This document shows, piece after piece, positions 7,962 through 42,765 of a stretch of 64,000 nt of DNA; the first letter of the stretch is position 1, and every line of letters starts with the position of its first letter. Position numbers and translations under genes: made by a program. The DNA is from Saliphagus infecundisoli. Lineage in GTDB: Archaea > Halobacteriota > Halobacteria > Halobacteriales > Natrialbaceae. Below the pieces are notes generated by a model that worked only from the letters and a program-made list of their open reading frames with translations, did not search any database and was not told where the DNA came from. The stretch covers positions 62,001-126,000 of the forward strand of contig NZ_JAIWHV010000008.1 of assembly GCF_020177375.1 (NCBI RefSeq). The letters run 5' to 3'.

Positions 7962-9146
7962 ATGGAGACGACCGAGGCGTTTTCCGGCCTCGCCTGCCTC
8001 GACTGCGGGGAGGAAGTCGGGCCGGAAGCGGGCCGATGTCCGGCGTGTGGGGGCGTGCTCGATCCGCGCTACGACTACGACGCGATCGGCGTCGAGCCGG
8101 CCGCCCTCGACTCGCGTCGCACGAACGGCCAGTGGCGCTACGAGGACCTGCTCCCCCTCCCGCGCGAGCGGGCGGTGACGGCCGACGAGGGCGGAACCCC
8201 CCTGGTCGACTGTGGAAAACTCGCCGACGAACTCGGGATCGAGCGCGTGTTCGTCAAGGACGAGGGGCGGAATCCGTCGGGGTCGATCGCCGACCGGGGC
8301 GCCTACCTGGGCGCTTCGATGGCTCGCGAGGCCGGAGTGGAGGCGGTCGGCCTCGCTTCGACGGGCACCGACGGTCAGGCCGTCGCCGCGGCCGCGGGCC
8401 GGGCCGACCTCGCGGCGAACGTCTTCGTTCCCGCCCGCTCGGGGTTTACCGCGAAGGCGATGACGAACGTCCACGGCGGCGAGATGACCGTCGCGGGGGG
8501 GCGGATCAGGGAGGCCGAGGAAGCGTACGCCGACGCGAGCGAGGGCGAGGAGTGGTACCCGATGGGCGCCTTCGAGACACCCTACCGCCACGAGGGCGTC
8601 AAGACCGTCGCCTACGAGATCGCCGAATCTCTGGAGTGGGAGTCCCCCGACGCCGTCGTCGTCCCGACCGGTGACGGTGCCGGCGTAGTCGGCATCGAGA
8701 AGGGGTTTCGAGAACTCGTGGAACTGGACTTCGTCGATCGGGTTCCCTCGATCTACGCCGCCCAGGCGTCGGGCTGTGCACCGATCGCGGAGGCCGTCGC
8801 CACGGGCGCGGACGAACCCGAGCCCGTCGAACACCCCGACACGATCTGTGGCGACATCGAGATCCCCGACCCGACGGCGGGAGCCCACGTCATCGATGCG
8901 CTTTCCCGATCGGGAGGCGGCGGGGTCGCGACCGACGACGAGGAGATCCTCGAGGCCGCGATCGCGGTCGCGAAAGGGGAGGGCCTGGAGTTCTCGCCCA
9001 GCGCCGCGAGCGCCGCGAGCGGGGCCTGGGAACTCGCCGAGCAGGGAACCTGGAACGGGGACGAAACGGTCGTGATCGTCAACACCGCCTCGGCGAACAA
9101 GGAGGCGGACGTCCTCCGGAGCCACCTGATGGGCAAGGGAATTTAG
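7962..9146 (+). CDS. Threonine-synthase-like protein lacking the PLP lysine
   Basis: 394 residues from ATG 7962. Cys12/Cys15 and Cys26/Cys29 form the N-terminal zinc ribbon usual in archaeal ThrC. The fold-type II PLP core follows: NPSGSIADRG at 104-113, GTDGQAVAAAAGRAD, and PTGDGAG. Active threonine synthases have GSFKDR, in which Lys binds PLP. Here the codons read Ser-Ile-Ala-Asp-Arg, so Ala110 replaces the lysine. It may be a non-catalytic paralogue, or may use PLP differently or not at all. A canonical ThrC-like protein with the lysine is encoded at 23688-24794. Confidence 0.82.
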   Translation: METTEAFSGLACLDCGEEVGPEAGRCPACGGVLDPRYDYDAIGVEPAALDSRRTNGQWRYEDLLPLPRERAVTADEGGTPLVDCGKLADELGIERVFVKDEGRNPSGSIADRGAYLGASMAREAGVEAVGLASTGTDGQAVAAAAGRADLAANVFVPARSGFTAKAMTNVHGGEMTVAGGRIREAEEAYADASEGEEWYPMGAFETPYRHEGVKTVAYEIAESLEWESPDAVVVPTGDGAGVVGIEKGFRELVELDFVDRVPSIYAAQASGCAPIAEAVATGADEPEPVEHPDTICGDIEIPDPTAGAHVIDALSRSGGGGVATDDEEILEAAIAVAKGEGLEFSPSAASAASGAWELAEQGTWNGDETVVIVNTASANKEADVLRSHLMGKGI

Positions 9147-9769
9147 CCCTCTCGGATTTCGAGATCGAAGCCCCAGTCGAAATCCTCGATCTCCTCGAAG
9201 ATGCGCGTGGACTCGAACCGGTACCCGCCGGACGGAACACAGCCCTTGACCGACGGATCGTCGGCGACGACGTACTCGTCAGTGACCGCCTCGCCCGACT
9301 CGAGGTCGTGGTGGACCCCCTCCTCCGTAGTGAAGTCGATCGCCTCCTGGGTCGGTTCGGGGTCGTCGATACACTCCGGCCGGTAGTCCTCGCCCGGACT
9401 ATCGGCAGCCTCGAGCGAGTAAAGGACGATTCCGGCAGGGCCGTCGGTCCCGCTTCGGCCCTTGTAGTACGGTGATACCGTCCGGTCGCAATCGCCGACG
9501 TTCATCGTCTCGAGTTCCAGCAGCGCCGCCCCGTCGGCCGCCACCCGTTCCTCGAGAACGCGAAGGTCGAACGCGATCGGTGCTCGATCCGGGAGGTCGC
9601 CAGTGTCCGCGATCGAGACGACGCGCTCGAAGTCATCCGCGGTGTCGTTTTCGTTGGCGTCGTCCGTCCCGTCGTCATCCCCGTTCTTGGAGCCGGTGCC
9701 GACTCCCCCGAGACATCCCGGAAGGACGATCGCGGGTCCGACACCGGCGAGGAAACGACGCCGATGCAT
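9143..9769 (-). CDS. Tat-exported lipoprotein, unknown function
   Basis: 208 residues from ATG 9769. MHRRRFLAGVG is a twin-arginine signal, with a lipobox ending PGCLGG near residue 19. An acidic linker (GDDDGTDDANENDTADD) and a folded domain of ~150 residues with several Cys follow. This is the usual build of haloarchaeal cell-surface lipoproteins. The stop overlaps the convergent threonine-synthase-like gene by 4 bp. Confidence 0.8.
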   Translation of the reverse strand: MHRRRFLAGVGPAIVLPGCLGGVGTGSKNGDDDGTDDANENDTADDFERVVSIADTGDLPDRAPIAFDLRVLEERVAADGAALLELETMNVGDCDRTVSPYYKGRSGTDGPAGIVLYSLEAADSPGEDYRPECIDDPEPTQEAIDFTTEEGVHHDLESGEAVTDEYVVADDPSVKGCVPSGGYRFESTRIFEEIEDFDWGFDLEIREG

Positions 9770-9834
9770 GATCCGTTCTCGTCGCCGATGGAGGATAACC
9801 GTTCGGGACGGTGAAACGTCCGTTTGAGCGTCGG

Positions 9835-18829: not shown

Positions 18830-19552
18830 ATGGGCGACAATAGACAGACGAACGACGCTGCCGACGATCACGTCGGGCTCTCGAGGCGGACGACGCTCAG
18901 TCTGATGGGCCACAGCGGACTCCTGTTGGGTTCGCAGTCCGCGACCGCGGCCACGGGGACCGACCCCGGTCCGGGTCCCACCGGTACCCAGGAACACGAC
19001 GTCGACTTCCGGGGCCACAGCCTCGCCAACGTGGGCTCGCTGTCGATGGCTGCCCGTTCTCAACCGATCACCGACTTCGCGGGCCGAAATCTCTCGATCG
19101 GTTCCGACGGCGTCCTCCACGCCACGAGCACGTCGCCGTTCGACGGCGCGCTCGTCCCGATCCAGAACTACGAGGTCGGCGTCTTCTCCCCCCACGAAAC
19201 CCACTTTACCCGCCAACACGCGCCCGACCCGGTGACGATCCCCTTCGACCAGCTCGACGAGGGGTTCTCGAACTGTTTCGTCTCGCTGTCTGGCGCCGCC
19301 GTCGCCTCCGAACCCGACTCGACGCTCTCCGTTCGGCTCGTCGATCTCACCTCCGGGGACCCGCTGGCCGATTCCGAGGTCCAGGAGACGGTTTCGGAAA
19401 CTCGTCCGACCCGGGTTCCCGTCGTCGGCCCACAAGTGGCCTACGACCCCGAACGCAACGCCGTCCTCGGTTTCGAGGCGAAAGTCGGTGGCGGGGACGA
19501 ACAGGTCGCCCTCGAGGGGGCGACCGTTCAGCTGTGGGGTGAGGTGAGATGA
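18830..19552 (+). CDS. Tat-exported surface protein, first gene of the beta-helix module
   Basis: 240 residues from ATG 18830. Arg19-Arg20 in LSRRTTLSLMG, then a hydrophobic stretch and an Ala-rich cleavage region, form a Tat signal. The short repeat-like segment VDFRGHSLANVGSL resembles LDLGGNDITDVGTL in the next protein, a motif common in tail-fibre-like proteins. The remaining ~150 residues look like a beta-sandwich. The stop overlaps the next start (ATGA), so the pair is translationally coupled. Confidence 0.72.
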   Translation: MGDNRQTNDAADDHVGLSRRTTLSLMGHSGLLLGSQSATAATGTDPGPGPTGTQEHDVDFRGHSLANVGSLSMAARSQPITDFAGRNLSIGSDGVLHATSTSPFDGALVPIQNYEVGVFSPHETHFTRQHAPDPVTIPFDQLDEGFSNCFVSLSGAAVASEPDSTLSVRLVDLTSGDPLADSEVQETVSETRPTRVPVVGPQVAYDPERNAVLGFEAKVGGGDEQVALEGATVQLWGEVR

Positions 19553-22500
19553 GCGGAACGAGAGCGCATTTGTCCGGGGATCAGTATATTGCCGCGGACG
19601 AAATGACTACCGTTCAATTCGATCAGACGACTTATGACGACTTTGATGCGCTCGACTCCGAGGACCATACGATTGAGATCCCACAGGACGGACGATACGC
19701 GTTCAAATCCACTGTAAGGGTAACAGGAATCAGTAATGAGGATAACGTCCAAACTGTCGTACGCAAGAACGGATCCTGGATAATCCAGTCAGACGAACGG
19801 AACGGCCCCTATGGGAGTGCGATTTCCTATGACGAGTTCGACGCGAGCGCCGGTGATCGTATAAGCGTTGGTGTCCGTCTCCGGACGGACGAAGGCGGTA
19901 CCGTCCGAGGGAATTCGCGCGAAACTAACCTTCTCGTCTCCCCAGTCTCCTCTACCAGCTTCCCTCGAGAAGCGAACTTGGACCTCGGAGGTAACGACAT
20001 CACGGACGTCGGCACGCTCGCTGCCGAGACGATCGACGCGGAGAACCTCGGCTTCGACGGTTTCGAGGTCGATCAGGTGGTAACCGACGTGCTAGACTCG
20101 GAGGCCACCGCCGCGGGAGCACTCCAGAGCGACTCGCTGTCGGTCGAGGGATGGAACGTCATCGACGCCTCGAACTACGGCTATCCGGGGGATCGGTCTG
20201 GCGGGGACATCATGGAGCTGTTCCGGGAGTTCCCCAACAGCGTCTTCGTCCTGCCCGAAGGGGAGTACTCGGTCCAGTCGGAGCTCAACTGGACCTCGCC
20301 GAACGACGGCTACGACCAGCTCCAGGTGATCGGCAAGCCCCATGCCCGGCTGGTCGTCGACGATCAGAACGTCGATCACTTCGCGTGGCTCGGCAATAGC
20401 CGCGGTGGGGCGTTCGATCGGCTTTCCCTGCAGAACCTGACGCTCGTGGTCGACGGTCGAAACGGATACGACGCGGGTTGGGGCCGGTTCTGGGTCGACG
20501 ACACGGTTCAGAATAGAAACCTGAAACTCGAGGGCCAACGGGCCCACCGCCTCGAGGAGGGTGGCAAGTTCGGCTACTTCTGTTGTATGACCGATCCCGC
20601 TGGGATGGGGATCCACCAGAACATCGATATGCCCGACGGCGACATTCCCTCGGTCCAGTCGGACAACACCGCGATCGGGATCGGTGCCGAGCCTTCTCAC
20701 GTCGGGACGAACCTCTGGCTCGGCTGTTATCTCGAGAACTGGTGGGGCAACGGCTACTACGTGAAAGACGGTACCGGGCGGAACGTCCTCGTCGGGTGTG
20801 AGGCCAGGAACTGTGGGAACGCGAACATCCGGATCGGCTACAGCGACGTCGTGATCGCCTGTCGGAGCGTCTGGGACGACCCACGTGGCGTCGACGAGAT
20901 ACGACAGGGGGTCTGTTTCGACGCCGACGAGGCGAACGGGACCGCCGTCGTTGGACTGCGGATAATCAAAGAGACGGGGGAAAACGCGACGGCCCGGATG
21001 CGAGCGGAGGCCCGCAGCGCGACCTACCGCGACGTCTATATCGAAAACCAGACCGACCAGCGCTCGCTCCAGGTCACCGGTACGGGCTCGAACCCCGAAC
21101 AGGGAATCCTCGCGCTCGACGGCGTCCGGATCATCGACGGCGGCGACGGCTCGATCAATACGGCCGCACTCCGCATCGACCGCGAGAACGTCCACCTCTC
21201 GAACGTCTCGATCGACTGCATCAACGAGGACTCCTATCGAGCGGCTCTCCAGATCCAGAGCGGTTCGGCACGGATCACGAACTCCCGGCTCGCGGCACAC
21301 GGCCCAAGTTACGCGGTGATCCTCGGTACCCAGAGCGGACGGGCCGAGATCGACCGGGCGACGTTCAACGACACGGAAGTCACCCAGGGATTCTACCTCT
21401 ACGGCAACGACGACCAGATCGACTCCCTGGAGATCCGGGACTGTGACCTCCGGGAGGTCGGGGACGTCTTCCCGGCCTACAGCCCGGACGACGACGCCGT
21501 CAACCTCACGCGGGGCGTCTGGCGGGACAATCTCGGCTACCTCGGCGAAACGGAGTGGGGAAGCGGGGGAGCAAGCGCACAGTCGATGAATGTCGCTCCG
21601 TCCTCGACCGGCGGATCGTGGGCCAACGTGGCCGACTACGGCGCGGTCGGCGACGGCGAGGCCGACGACACGGACGCGTTCCGGCGGGCGCTCGCCGATT
21701 CGAGGCGGGTGTTCGTCCCCGAACCCGAGGCGGGCTACTACCTGACCGACACCCTCGAGCTCGACGGCCACGTCCTCGCAGGGGAGTCGGCGGAGTCGGT
21801 CACCCTCGGCTTCGACCTCGGGGAGGCGTCGAAGCCGGTCGGGATCGAGGTCGTGGACACGTCGACGGTGCGGGATCTCGGGGTGATGAGCGGGCGTTCG
21901 CGGTGGAACCTCGGGGCGCCCTGGAGCGGCCTCCGAGCCAACGGCGCTCACGAGGTGACGACCGAACGCCTGGCCGTCCGGGGCTTCGAGTACGGCCTCC
22001 ACCTTCTTGCCAGAGAGGAGGCCATCGAGAACGGCCAGTACGGGATCGCGAACGTCGTCGACTGCGTCGAAGGGGTCCGGCTGGAGGCGACGGAGGGGGG
22101 CCGGGTCGACGGCAACGCCTTCTCGGGCGGCCGGATCGGGATCTCCTCGGCGCGAGCCAGCGAGGCAGACGCCCTGGATCGGGAGACCTACGGCGTCAAC
22201 TTCCACAACGAGACGTGGTCGGCGATGACCGACAACACGTTCGTCACTCCCGCGATCGACGGCGTCGAGGTCGGCGCCCGGTGTACGGGCCGGTACAACA
22301 CGTTCGTGGGTGCGCGGTGTTCGGACATGCGCGGGGAGGAACTCGGGATCGTCTTCGACGACGACGGCCCCTCCCAGCCCCGGTACAACAACGTCTTCGG
22401 CTACGACGACGACGGCGAGGAGCCCGCCCGGATCCGCTACCGCGGCGAGGACGGCATCGGCGAGGACCTCCGGGGGAACTTCGCCGTCGCCAACGGCGTC

Positions 22501-22707
22501 CCCCTGGAGACCGGGCGGATCAACCTCCACGAGGAGGGCCACCACGGCGCGTTCGTCTCCTTCGACGCCGAGAGCCGGGAGTTCGTTTTCGAGTCCGAGG
22601 GGACAGTCGTCGGTCGACTCGACGCCGAGAACGGCGACCTCCGGATCGCGGGGACCATAGAGGAGAACGCCGACCTCCGTTCAGGGGCCGGCAATCGAAC
22701 CCACTAA
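19549..22707 (+). CDS. Tail-spike-like double beta-helix protein with C1q-like N-terminus
   Basis: A 1052-residue protein. Residues ~1-130 resemble a C1q/TNF-like trimeric head (TVQFDQTTYDDFDAL, IEIPQDGRYAFKSTVRV). LDLGGNDITDVGTLAAETI at ~145 is a fibre-type repeat. Two pectate-lyase-3/tail-spike beta-helices follow, one from ~200 (WNVIDASNYGYPGD, FVLPEGEYSV) and one from ~690 (NVADYGAVGDGEADDTDAFR). The C-terminal fifty residues (FVSFDAESREFVFESEG, GRLDAENGDLRIAG) resemble fibre tips. No signal peptide is seen although the fold is extracellular. The first ~400 bp are clearly more A/T-rich than the rest. It is likely a surface adhesin or polysaccharide-degrading enzyme, with no proven activity. 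Confidence 0.75.
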   Translation: MSGTRAHLSGDQYIAADEMTTVQFDQTTYDDFDALDSEDHTIEIPQDGRYAFKSTVRVTGISNEDNVQTVVRKNGSWIIQSDERNGPYGSAISYDEFDASAGDRISVGVRLRTDEGGTVRGNSRETNLLVSPVSSTSFPREANLDLGGNDITDVGTLAAETIDAENLGFDGFEVDQVVTDVLDSEATAAGALQSDSLSVEGWNVIDASNYGYPGDRSGGDIMELFREFPNSVFVLPEGEYSVQSELNWTSPNDGYDQLQVIGKPHARLVVDDQNVDHFAWLGNSRGGAFDRLSLQNLTLVVDGRNGYDAGWGRFWVDDTVQNRNLKLEGQRAHRLEEGGKFGYFCCMTDPAGMGIHQNIDMPDGDIPSVQSDNTAIGIGAEPSHVGTNLWLGCYLENWWGNGYYVKDGTGRNVLVGCEARNCGNANIRIGYSDVVIACRSVWDDPRGVDEIRQGVCFDADEANGTAVVGLRIIKETGENATARMRAEARSATYRDVYIENQTDQRSLQVTGTGSNPEQGILALDGVRIIDGGDGSINTAALRIDRENVHLSNVSIDCINEDSYRAALQIQSGSARITNSRLAAHGPSYAVILGTQSGRAEIDRATFNDTEVTQGFYLYGNDDQIDSLEIRDCDLREVGDVFPAYSPDDDAVNLTRGVWRDNLGYLGETEWGSGGASAQSMNVAPSSTGGSWANVADYGAVGDGEADDTDAFRRALADSRRVFVPEPEAGYYLTDTLELDGHVLAGESAESVTLGFDLGEASKPVGIEVVDTSTVRDLGVMSGRSRWNLGAPWSGLRANGAHEVTTERLAVRGFEYGLHLLAREEAIENGQYGIANVVDCVEGVRLEATEGGRVDGNAFSGGRIGISSARASEADALDRETYGVNFHNETWSAMTDNTFVTPAIDGVEVGARCTGRYNTFVGARCSDMRGEELGIVFDDDGPSQPRYNNVFGYDDDGEEPARIRYRGEDGIGEDLRGNFAVANGVPLETGRINLHEEGHHGAFVSFDAESREFVFESEGTVVGRLDAENGDLRIAGTIEENADLRSGAGNRTH

Positions 22708-22731: not shown

Positions 22732-23688
22732 ATGACGACGTTCGGAACGGCCGAGGCCGCGCCCGGCGAGACGGCGACGGGGCGCCTCGAGGTGGGGGAG
22801 ACCCGAGACGGGGCCGCCTTCGGCCTCCCGGTCGCCGTGATAAACGGCGCCGAGGACGGGAAGACCCTCTACGTGCAGGCCGTCAGCGACGGTGACGAGT
22901 TGAACGGGGTGGGGGTACTCCGGCGAGTCGTTCCGCGGCTCGATCCAGCGGAGATCTCGGGGACGATCCTGGTGACGGCGATCGTCAACTACCACGCCTT
23001 CCAGGTCGCCCGCCACCGGAACCCGATCGACGACACGAAAATGAATCGGGCGTATCCCGGCGACGCGGAGGGGACGTCCAGCGAGCGCATCGCCCACGCG
23101 ACCTTCGAGGCGGCCTCCCGGGCGGATCTGATCGTCGACCTCCACCAGGGCTCGACGAGCCGGATGATCGACGAGGTCCGGGTGCGGTGTGGCCGCCGCC
23201 ACCGCCTTCACGAGGAGTGTCTCGAGCTGGCGAAGGTCTTTGGCGCGGGCTACGTCTTAGACCAGAAAGGTCCCGACGGCCAGCTCGCTCGAGCCGGGCC
23301 CGACGAGGGGGTACCGACGATCGATCCCGAGCTCGGGGGGTCGGTCGGCTGGGACGAGGCGAGCGTACAGACGGGCGTCGACGGCCTCTACAACGTCCTC
23401 GCTCACTACGGCTTTCTCCCCGGGGACGCAAACTACGGCGACCAGACGCGGGCGGCCGGCTTCGACCAGTACGGCGCGCCGCGGGGCGGGCTCGTCGAGT
23501 TCGCGGCCGACCTCGGCGACCGGGTCCAGTCCGGAGACCCGCTGTTCGAGGTCACGACCCCCTTCGGCGAGCGGAAAGCGGAGGTGACCGCCGAGGAGAA
23601 CGGCATCCTCTGGCGGAGCCGTCGGCTACCACAGGTCGCGACGGGCGAGTACGTCTGTTCGATCGGCGTCGACGTCGACACCTACTGA
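22732..23688 (+). CDS. Succinylglutamate desuccinylase/aspartoacylase family protein
   Basis: A 318-residue protein. The zinc carboxypeptidase-like core includes DDTKMNRAYPGDAEG and ADLIVDLHQGSTSR (His of the metal site). The C-terminal beta-domain (AAGFDQYGAPRGGLVEFAAD) is as in AstE/AspA relatives. The acyl-amino-acid substrate is unknown. The stop shares one base with the start of the threonine synthase gene, so they form an operon. Confidence 0.85.
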   Translation: MTTFGTAEAAPGETATGRLEVGETRDGAAFGLPVAVINGAEDGKTLYVQAVSDGDELNGVGVLRRVVPRLDPAEISGTILVTAIVNYHAFQVARHRNPIDDTKMNRAYPGDAEGTSSERIAHATFEAASRADLIVDLHQGSTSRMIDEVRVRCGRRHRLHEECLELAKVFGAGYVLDQKGPDGQLARAGPDEGVPTIDPELGGSVGWDEASVQTGVDGLYNVLAHYGFLPGDANYGDQTRAAGFDQYGAPRGGLVEFAADLGDRVQSGDPLFEVTTPFGERKAEVTAEENGILWRSRRLPQVATGEYVCSIGVDVDTY

Positions 23689-24794
23689 TGGCGTCACCCC
23701 TCTCCTGTCCGGCCTGTGGCGCCGAGTACGCTCCCGGACCGGACGAACCCTGGCGGTGTTCGTGTGGCGCGCCCCTCGAGCTCGCCGCGGATCCTCCCCC
23801 GAACTCCCCGCAAGGGCGGACAGTCGATCCCGGGGAGGGGCTGTGGACGTTCGAGGAGTGGCTTCCCGTCAGGCGGCGGGTCAGCCTCGGGGAGGGATTC
23901 ACGCCGCTGGTTTCGGCGGGCGAGCGATGGGGCGAGGCAGTGGGGTTCAAGCTCGAGTACGTCTTCCCGACGGGGTCGTTCAAGGACCGAGGGGCGACGA
24001 CGACGCTCTCGCGGGCCGCCGAACTCGGCGTCAAGCGAGTGATCGAGGACTCCTCGGGCAACGCGGGCGCGGCGATCGCGACCTACGCCGCGCGGGCGGG
24101 GATCGACGCGGAGATCTACGTGCCCGCGGGGGTCAAAGCCTCGAAGCTTTCGGCGATCGAACGCGCCGGCGCGCGCCCGGTCCGCGTCGAGGGCGGCCGG
24201 GCGGCCGTCACGGAGGCCTGCCTCGAGGCCGTAGAACGCGGCGAAGGCTGGTACGCGAGTCACGCCTGGAACCCCGCCTTTTACGCCGGAACCTCGACGT
24301 TCGCCTTCGAAATTGCGGCCCAGCGCGGCTGGTCGGTTCCCGACGCCGTCGTCTGTCCGGTCGGCCATGGCACCCTGTTTCTGGGGGCGTATCGTGGCTT
24401 TCGTGCGCTCTACAACGCGGGAATCACCGACCGGCTCCCGCGGCTGCTGGGTGTCCAGTCGGAGGCGGCGGCACCGATCGCGGAGGCGATCGGCGGCGAT
24501 GAGAGAGACCAGAGCGCCGACGCGACGACGGTCGCCGACGGCATCAGGATCGAAGCGCCCGCTCGACACGCCGAGATCGTAGAGGCGGTCGAGGTCACGA
24601 ACGGGGACGCGACCGCCCTCGATGACGGGCGGATCGAGGCGGCTCTCGACCGGCTCCACCGCGGCGGGTTCTACGTCGAGCCGACGTCGGCGGTCGCGCC
24701 CGCGGCCGTAGAACGGTATCGAGAACTGGGGGTCGTAGAGCCCGGCGCGGACGTGGTCGTTCCCCTCACCGGCAGCGGCCTCAAGGGGGAGTGA
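23688..24794 (+). CDS. thrC: Threonine synthase (PLP-dependent)
   Basis: 368 residues from ATG 23688. The N-terminal zinc ribbon has CPAC (7-10) and CSC (24-26). PTGSFKDRGA places the PLP lysine at 99. EDSSGNAGAAIATYAARAG is the phosphate-binding loop. It converts O-phosphohomoserine to threonine. Unlike the paralogue at 7962-9146, all key residues are intact. The desuccinylase precedes it and a Nudix gene follows after 1 bp. Confidence 0.87.
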   Translation: MASPLSCPACGAEYAPGPDEPWRCSCGAPLELAADPPPNSPQGRTVDPGEGLWTFEEWLPVRRRVSLGEGFTPLVSAGERWGEAVGFKLEYVFPTGSFKDRGATTTLSRAAELGVKRVIEDSSGNAGAAIATYAARAGIDAEIYVPAGVKASKLSAIERAGARPVRVEGGRAAVTEACLEAVERGEGWYASHAWNPAFYAGTSTFAFEIAAQRGWSVPDAVVCPVGHGTLFLGAYRGFRALYNAGITDRLPRLLGVQSEAAAPIAEAIGGDERDQSADATTVADGIRIEAPARHAEIVEAVEVTNGDATALDDGRIEAALDRLHRGGFYVEPTSAVAPAAVERYRELGVVEPGADVVVPLTGSGLKGE

Positions 24795-40868: not shown

Positions 40869-40917
40869 GTTCGGGCACGAACCCCATGATTTACGGTGAT
40901 GTTCGCCACACTTATCC
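40869..40917 (+). promoter_or_regulatory. Promoter region of glutamate dehydrogenase with inverted repeat
   Basis: GTTCGGGCACGAAC (40869-40882) is an inverted repeat. CACTTATCCC (from ~40908) lies about 28 bp before the ATG at 40941 and is a likely TATA element. Two GTTCGCC copies flank it. A regulator site is possible. Confidence 0.35.
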
Positions 40918-40940
40918 CACGTTCGCCGAATCCACTAGGC

Positions 40941-42203
40941 ATGTCTGCCGACGTGAACCCCTTCGAGAGCCTCCAGTCCCAGATCGACGAGGCCGCGGCC
41001 CACATGGACGTCGCCGACGACGTCGTCGAGCGGCTCAAACACCCCGAGCGGGTCCTCGAGACGAACCTGACCGTAGAGCGCGACGACGGTACCCTGGAGC
41101 GGTTCAAGGCCTTCCGCTCGCAGTTCAACGGCGACCGCGGCCCCTACAAGGGGGGCATCCGCTATCACCCACACGTCAGCCGCGAGGAGGTCAAGGCCCT
41201 CTCGGGGTGGATGGTCTACAAGTGTGCGATCGTGGACATCCCCTACGGCGGGGGGAAGGGTGGGATCGCGATCGACCCCGCGGAGTACAGCGAGACCGAA
41301 CTCGAGCGCGTCACGCGCGCGTTCGCGGCCGAACTCCGCCCGCTGATCGGCGAGGACCGGGACGTGCCCGCACCCGACGTCAACACGGGCCAACGGGAGA
41401 TGAACTGGATCAAGGACACCTACGAGACCCTCGAGAACACGACGGCGCCGGGAGTCGTCACCGGGAAGTCGCTCTCGAGTGGCGGCAGCGAGGGCCGCGT
41501 CGAGGCGACCGGCCGCTCGACGGTGATCGCCGCACACGAGGCCCTGGAGTACCTCGGCCGGGAGATCGAGGGCGCGACGGTCGCCGTCCAGGGTTACGGC
41601 AACGCGGGCTCGATCGCCGCCCGACTGGCCGACGAACGGGGCGCGCGCGTGGTCGCCGTCTCGGACTCCAGCGGCGGGATCCGAAGCGACGACCGCCTCG
41701 ACCCGCGGGCCGTCAAGTCCCACAAGGAGGAAACCGGCAGCGTCGTCGGCTACCCCGACGCCGACAGCGAACTCACCAACGAGGAACTCCTCACGGCCGA
41801 CGTCGACGTCCTGATCCCCGCGGCCCTGGAGAACGCCATCGACGGCGACCTCGCCGAGGACGTGGAGGCCGACCTGATCGTCGAGGCCGCCAACGGGCCG
41901 CTGACGCCGCGGGCCGACGACGTCCTTGCCGAGAGCGAGGTGACGGTCGTTCCCGACATCCTCGCGAACTCGGGCGGCGTCACCGTCTCCTACTTCGAGT
42001 GGGTCCAGAACCGCCAACGTTTCCACTGGTCCGAAGAGCGTGTCAACGACGAGCTCGAGACGATGGTCGTCGACGCCTTCGACGCCCTGACCGACGCCTA
42101 CGAGAACCACGGCGCCGAGGACTTCCGGACCGCGGCCTACGTCGTCGCCGTCCAGCGGGTTGTAGACGCCTACGAGGAGTCCGGTACCTTCCCCGGCGCG
42201 TAG
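40941..42203 (+). CDS. gdh: Glutamate dehydrogenase
   Basis: 420 residues from ATG 40941. [11 protein letters not shown] and [11 protein letters not shown] are the substrate-binding and catalytic lysine regions, VPAPDVNTG the active-site aspartate region, and [17 protein letters not shown] the NAD(P) Rossmann motif. It interconverts glutamate with 2-oxoglutarate and ammonium. Cofactor preference cannot be read with certainty. The upstream in-frame codons to 40896 lie in the promoter. Confidence 0.94.
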
Positions 42204-42255
42204 CGACCGGGCGACAGCCTTTTGTTCCGGCGGGGAATCCCGGAGAGCGTCGTCA

Positions 42256-42765
42256 ATGCTCCTCGAACGGCTCTCCGTCTACCGCGACCGCGTCCGGAGA
42301 GCGTTCACGGCCGCCCTGGAGGAAGAACACACCGACCGGGAGATCGCCGCGAGCTTCGCCCTCGGAACCTTCATCACCGCGATGCCAACCGGCGGGCTCG
42401 GCCTCGGACTGTTCGTCGTTCTCGCCTATTACCTCGAGTGGGTCAGCAAGACCGCCATCTTCGCCTCCGCAGTCGTCCTCAACCCCCTGGTCAAGCCGGT
42501 GGTTTACGTCGCCAGCTACCAGCTCGGTGCCCTCGCCTTCGGCACCGAACCGGTCGCCGTCTTCGACCGGCCGCTCGCCGACGCCGCGGTGACCGCCGTC
42601 CAGCTTCTCGTGCTGGGCAACCTCGTGATCGCCCTCGTCCTCGCGGCCGCGGGCTACGCCCTCTCCCTGCGGATCGCCCGCGAACACCGCCGTCGCCGGG
42701 AGACGGGACGACCGCTCTCCCCGGCCGCGGCGGTTTCCTCGTTCGTGGATCGGCTACGGCGGTAG
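42256..42765 (+). CDS. DUF2062 membrane protein
   Basis: A 169-residue protein with a basic/acidic N-terminus and three hydrophobic segments (about 35-60, 68-90 and 112-135). FALGTFITAMPTGGLGLGLF and VVLNPLVKPVVY match DUF2062. Function unknown. It ends one base before the convergent acyl-CoA dehydrogenase stop. Confidence 0.8.
   Translation: MLLERLSVYRDRVRRAFTAALEEEHTDREIAASFALGTFITAMPTGGLGLGLFVVLAYYLEWVSKTAIFASAVVLNPLVKPVVYVASYQLGALAFGTEPVAVFDRPLADAAVTAVQLLVLGNLVIALVLAAAGYALSLRIAREHRRRRETGRPLSPAAAVSSFVDRLRR

Follow-up and report, generated by a model that had tools for sequence, protein, structure and literature searches.

In haloarchaea, the Tat route carries 39–55% of secreted proteins (PMC2945643), and in Escherichia coli signal-less partners are known to be exported by Tat hitchhiking (PMC4273604). 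In the spores of Bacillus, BxpB/ExsFA is a trimeric jelly roll that holds the BclA fiber by its N-terminus (PMC10470788). Here we describe a haloarchaeal gene pair in which a Tat-exported jelly-roll protein is directly followed by a giant signal-less protein whose head, stalk motif, and first beta-helix have the affinity of tailed-virus fibers.

The gene pair and its surroundings

The window, a stretch of 64,000 nt (G000:C75:62001-126000), is part of a 4.53 Mb haloarchaeal draft, the only genome of its genus in the sample. A sequence-only reading had proposed a two-gene module in which a gene with a Tat signal (ORF1) overlaps by four bases the gene of a giant protein (ORF2). When the sequence was re-read, both frames and the ATGA overlap were found where they had been placed (Table 1). 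The overlap suggests that ORF1 and ORF2 are translationally coupled.

Table 1. Positions of the two genes and their parts in the window
Feature	Position	Strand	Remarks
ORF1, Tat-exported small protein	18830..19552	+	240 aa from ATG; 253 aa from GTG 18791 (longest start)
ORF1 twin-arginine signal region	18830..18958	+	RR at residues 19-20; aligned with the Tat signals of L024-L029 and L049
ORF1 module DVDxxGHxLxxLGSL...DFAGxNLxVxxDGVLxA	18998..19132	+	residues 57-101
ORF1 TNF/C1q-like jelly roll, ends at the stop codon	19145..19549	+	residues 106-240, predicted model
ORF2, without export signal	19549..22707	+	1052 aa
ATGA overlap, ORF2 start/ORF1 stop	19549..19552	+	
ORF2 C1q-like head, low-GC3 cassette	19549..19959	+	residues 1-137
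ORF2 stalk motif LDLGGNDITDVGTL and linker	19975..20148	+	residues 143-200; GC3 back to genome level
ORF2 beta-helix 1, signal-less virus-type clade	20149..21561	+	residues 201-671
ORF2 beta-helix 2 (pectate-lyase/RHGA-epimerase type) and C-terminal tail	21589..22704	+	residues 681-1052

Upstream of the pair are a PF01259 SAICAR-synthetase-like (purC-type) gene and an NTP transferase (sugar nucleotidyltransferase), and downstream are AstE/AspA, a threonine synthase (recognized by eye), and NUDIX. The annotated or otherwise recognizable neighbors, part of the genes of the window being annotated, are cellular, and the pair does not lie in a tail gene cluster as expected of a tailed-virus (Caudoviricetes) fiber; no other tail genes were present among the genes read around the locus, and no tRNA adjoins the module. 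Promoter and terminator predictions of the sigma-70 type were uninformative at the locus, as expected for an archaeon. The order AstE/AspA to threonine synthase (window 22732–24794) is kept in nearly all the fetched relatives, and the side upstream of AstE/AspA, on which ORF2 sits, is not. Because purC and the nucleotidyltransferase were not found in the 1.5 kb upstream of AstE-ThrC in these relatives, they provide no clean empty site. Elsewhere in the window, a 568-aa ORF at 40886–42592 has a GC3 of 0.49, against 0.89–0.91 in the other window genes sampled, and is possibly an acquired gene or a wrong frame. The pair was not encountered a second time; 2 of 392 genomes have the ORF1 domain, and 6 of 293 have the ORF2 head.

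ORF1 carries the twin-arginine signal LSRRTTLSLMGHSGLLLGSQSATAATG, confirming the Tat signal that had been read in the preceding gene; of the two proteins, only this one has the signal of a Tat substrate. The signal is followed by the N-terminal module that also comes after the Tat signals of single-gene beta-helix proteins. According to the predicted model (pLDDT 58.9 overall, about 80 over residues 106–240), the mature, exported half of ORF1 is a TNF/C1q-like jelly roll. The best VIA-align matches of this head model were BxpB (Z 9.7), the TNF-like lectin PLTL (9.5), and BC2L-C (9.3), which count as tied since they lie within 1 of each other; the matches of this model (Z 8–10) are to a fold that is common. 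The jelly roll has a single relative in 392 genomes, a 213-aa Tat protein of G256 (L049; L071:8881-9522), a stand-alone protein whose end coincides with that of ORF1; tblastn of ORF1 against phages returned nothing. Tat-exported ORF1 is complete in itself and separate from ORF2. After the stop codon of the G256 gene there is a short coiled-coil-like reading frame (L071), perhaps a fiber remnant.

The short repeats of the two ORFs, FRGHSLANVGSL and LGGNDITDVGTL, had been taken to be related. This kinship was not borne out, as their Smith-Waterman score of 37 was reached by 229 of 300 shuffled pairs, and a profile of the ORF1 module finds ORF2 only at an i-E of 6. Each is a real motif, and they are members of two different recurring sets.

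Domains of ORF2 and their relatives

The frame of ORF2 is closed by a TGA at 19540–19542, two codons ahead of its ATG. Therefore, no longer start and no signal peptide are hidden upstream, and the description of ORF2 as a giant protein lacking a signal peptide holds. Its order is a C1q-like head, a stalk with the LDLGGNDI motif, and beta-helices 1 and 2. The whole protein, scanned against genome contigs and viral contigs, gave no relative, and among viruses nothing close to it was found, either over its full length or in the exact order of its domains. By tblastn against phages, ORF2 gave only weak helix-2 matches in bacterial phages, and for the head there were likewise only weak bacterial-phage matches.

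The C1q-like nature of the head was substantiated both by profile (PDB C1q-like, 3e-7) and by model, residues 1–137 having the C1q jelly-roll fold in each. The head alignment comprised these residues and five relatives, several members being matched by Pfam C1q and BclA_C, and the structure model of ORF2 covers the head only, the best of five models having a pLDDT of 89.8 (range 89.8 to 46.0). In Foldseek, the head matched a virion component of HSTV-1 (TM 0.88, rmsd 1.5, 26% identity), and also Halorubrum virus CGphi46, other virus C1q proteins, and the central spike knob of phi812. The head differs from its surroundings in codon usage: GC3 is 0.59 in codons 1–137, against 0.81–0.91 in the rest of ORF2, ORF1, and AstE, and climbs between codons 140 and 160. 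The GC profile of the window dips at the ORF2 start, and the C1q regions of three relatives (L050, L044, and L047) have a GC3 of 0.52–0.60. The head is thus a cassette, with the GC3 switch exactly at the head/stalk border (codons 140–150). The C1q domain is C-terminal in the aligned relatives and N-terminal in ORF2, which we infer arose by fusion of the head of one fiber with the stalk and helix of another.

Relatives of helix 1 were found in 75 of 125 genomes. Some are single genes that carry a Tat signal, and the others lack a signal and start with either a BppU-type base or a stretch resembling a coiled coil. The best matches to ORF2 in this search (in G130, G131, G097, and G098) are signal-less, and the closest match of helix 1 is a decayed paralog in its own genome. 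In the tree of helix 1, ORF2 pairs with the signal-less paralog of its own genome, L016 (96/93), a short row on a long branch, which limits its reliability. The group made up of ORF2 and eight signal-less proteins is supported at 92/86, which does not reach the starred level, and a 98/97 branch parts the ORF2 side from all the Tat-signal relatives but two (L090 and L094), which lie just outside the signal-less group. A signal-less protein of the G001 provirus (L021) falls on the Tat side. Inside the group of ORF2 are BppU-headed tail genes of an IMG/VR virus contig and of proviruses. Because the members of this clade are all signal-less, the missing signal of ORF2 is the rule of the clade and not damage. 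Homologs with a signal of their own, which had been named as evidence against the proposed module, do exist in a sister clade, but the nearest relatives have none.

The own genome contains, at L051:8776-9510 (G000:C44, about 65775–66509), a truncated and frameshifted signal-less paralog of helix 1, which begins with a coiled-coil-like stretch and lies near HTH and HalOD1-like genes. Seven further loci (L079-L085, in G126, G129, G029, G127, G002, G128, and G125) encode long proteins with GSDDEGQSW... repeats that end in a beta-helix of the helix-1 family, their N-termini lying beyond the fetched stretch.

Two pectate-lyase-type beta-helices had been proposed for ORF2. For helix 2 this was found directly, PF12708 matching residues 691–751 with 30.7 bits (Pfam cut-off 27), a score that places it in the superfamily; weaker Pfam matches (Beta_helix and NosD) lie beside it, and PHROG tail-spike families match ORF2 at the same place. 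For helix 1 the support comes only through relatives, two of which match PF13229 above the cut-off. Relatives of helix 2 are distant, and some of them are encoded among polysaccharide genes in G004 and G011, not in viruses. BppU_N had no Pfam match in ORF2 or elsewhere in its genome, with a model that likewise fails to detect the BppU-like head in L050.

Parts of ORF2 recur in virus and provirus loci. In an IMG/VR contig (L141), a BppU-headed helix-1 fiber occurs together with tail genes and a gene resembling a tape measure, and the same layout is found in G073 (L137); PF10651 is above its cut-off in both. A provirus tail gene next to the latter fiber gene (L137_4390) encodes SPLDLGGNDISGIGS, 57% identical to ORF2 144–164 over 21 residues. 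In G001, the provirus gene L050_13738 has at its end a C1q head like ORF2 2–133 (E 3e-5), its start being BppU-like by eye, without a Pfam call. In G130 a phage integrase adjoins the fiber gene, and tblastn of the helix of this relative (L132) against phages gave nothing. In G190, an apparent tail gene cluster (L056:4024-12785) has, by eye, a signal-less C1q gene at 9097–9783. This gene has a one-base overlap with the next gene, a layout resembling that of ORF1 and ORF2. In G097, a helix-1 fiber gene is broken into two frames (L136:6331-7859); its locus also encodes short fiber-type proteins and has an integrase-like gene.

Origin and possible export of the pair

Like a tailed-virus fiber, ORF2 has a receptor-binding type of head and a beta-helix related to virion proteins. 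Its head, stalk motif, and helix 1 have virus-fiber affinity. A virus-derived fiber, one of the possibilities raised from the sequence, is now well supported, since all three parts occur in tail genes of tailed viruses or proviruses, the tree places helix 1 among them, and the GC3 of the head is virus-like. We therefore consider it quite probable that ORF2 is a virus-derived mosaic fiber, now orphaned, and that ORF1 is a separate, complete Tat-exported jelly-roll protein translationally coupled to it. ORF2 would be a mosaic of tail fibers of haloarchaeal tailed viruses, in which a C1q-like receptor-binding head was fused ahead of the GGNDI stalk and two beta-helices, and would now be an orphan among housekeeping genes.

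An alternative raised by the sequence-only reading is that one ancestral Tat-exported fiber gene was recently split at the junction by a frameshift or a sequencing error. Proteins combining Tat signal, motif, and beta-helix in a single gene are indeed common in the family, and ORF1 and ORF2 are in different frames with a four-base overlap. Nevertheless, the stop at 19540–19542 confines any shift to about 10 nt, and a split is unlikely because the error must fall within this interval. Moreover, the ends of the domains are the ends of the genes: the ORF1 domain finishes at its own stop, like its stand-alone relative L049 in G256, which stops at the same place, and ORF2 opens with a whole C1q domain. 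The fused single gene sought among homologs, with the ORF1 domain joined to a fiber, was not found in 392 genomes. ORF1 and ORF2 are two complete genes with intact domain ends, and the split is highly improbable.

The family does show decay, with the truncated, frameshifted paralog of helix 1 in the same genome (L051), the frameshifted relatives in G097 (L136), and no other tail genes seen among those read around ORF2. It could thus be argued that ORF2 is the functionless leftover of a decayed provirus, placed behind a Tat gene by accident. We regard this as unlikely, although a serious contender: ORF2 is intact across 1052 codons with a genome-like GC3 over most of its length, no intergenic space separates it from ORF1, and its domain order is new, with a head added. 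It is improbable that the genes are an ordinary, non-viral secreted polysaccharide lyase pair in which ORF2, a cellular pectate-lyase-like enzyme, has lost its signal. The PF12708/PF13229 domains of ORF2 and its family, the glycosyltransferase-like or sugar-epimerase-like genes (by eye) near the helix-2 relatives in G011 and G004, and the sugar nucleotidyltransferase upstream of the pair would agree with such an enzyme, but helix 1 groups with virus-type fibers, the head matches virion proteins, and the GGNDI stalk has a match in a tail gene of a provirus.

Predicted models place a TNF/C1q-type jelly-roll domain on each side of the ORF1/ORF2 border, and although both are jelly rolls, no sequence relation between the heads was detectable (hhalign probability 0.3). 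Both heads probably trimerize, and since at the junction each protein has a jelly-roll head of a kind that forms trimers, Tat hitchhiking becomes somewhat more plausible. The two heads could form a complex that is then exported folded. That ORF1 associates with ORF2 and that the folded pair leaves through Tat on the ORF1 signal is a tentative reading, somewhat short of an even chance, and a role as a surface adhesin that binds or cuts glycans comes close to one. The complete scheme, an archaeal two-gene surface system in which a domesticated virus fiber that lacks its own signal is put together in the cytoplasm by the pairing of TNF/C1q-like heads and exported whole through Tat on the signal of its partner, is doubtful as a whole. 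Were ORF2 not exported, it would be a retained virus fiber, released by lysis only or never.

The pair suggests the adoption of a virus attachment device as a cell-surface tool. In it, tail-fiber parts of haloarchaeal viruses appear to have been joined by recombination into a cellular gene that stands on its own and is coupled to a partner exported by Tat, and the borders of the head cassette can be read from codon usage. Should the pair be exported, a large beta-helix fiber would be hitchhiking through Tat, and the reuse of virus attachment devices by archaea could be tested on it directly.

Comparison with known systems

The closest likenesses to ORF2 are in the BppU-headed fibers of haloarchaeal viruses and proviruses (L137 in G073, L141 in IMG/VR, and L050 in G001), which share the GGNDI stalk, the helix family, the C1q head, and the lack of a signal, these features being spread over the three genes and not united in one. 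Those fibers have a BppU_N or BppU-like start, lie in tail gene clusters, and carry the C1q head at the C-terminus, whereas ORF2 opens with the C1q head, has a second beta-helix and no detected BppU domain, and is encoded at an isolated locus. The gp42 fiber of Haloferax tailed virus 1 shares with ORF2 a building plan of beta-helix, stalk, and head (PMC12494034); compared by plan and not by sequence, its order of base, helix, stalk, and head is unlike that of ORF2 (PMC12494034). The Tat-exported single-gene beta-helix proteins (L002, L006-L009, L014, L019, and L023-L042) have either the beta-helix family of ORF2 or the Tat signal and GHSL module of ORF1, but unlike the pair they combine signal and helix within a single gene, and they are not members of the ORF2 clade.

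The likeness of BxpB/ExsFA to the ORF1 head model (Z 9.7) is at the level of fold only, and this protein may serve as a works-like precedent for a jelly-roll fiber anchor. The E. coli PaoABC hitchhiker (PMC4273604) offers a works-like model in which signal-less partners are exported folded on the Tat signal of one partner; PaoABC is a redox enzyme, its proteins are unrelated to ORF1 and ORF2, and the export of ORF2 is putative.
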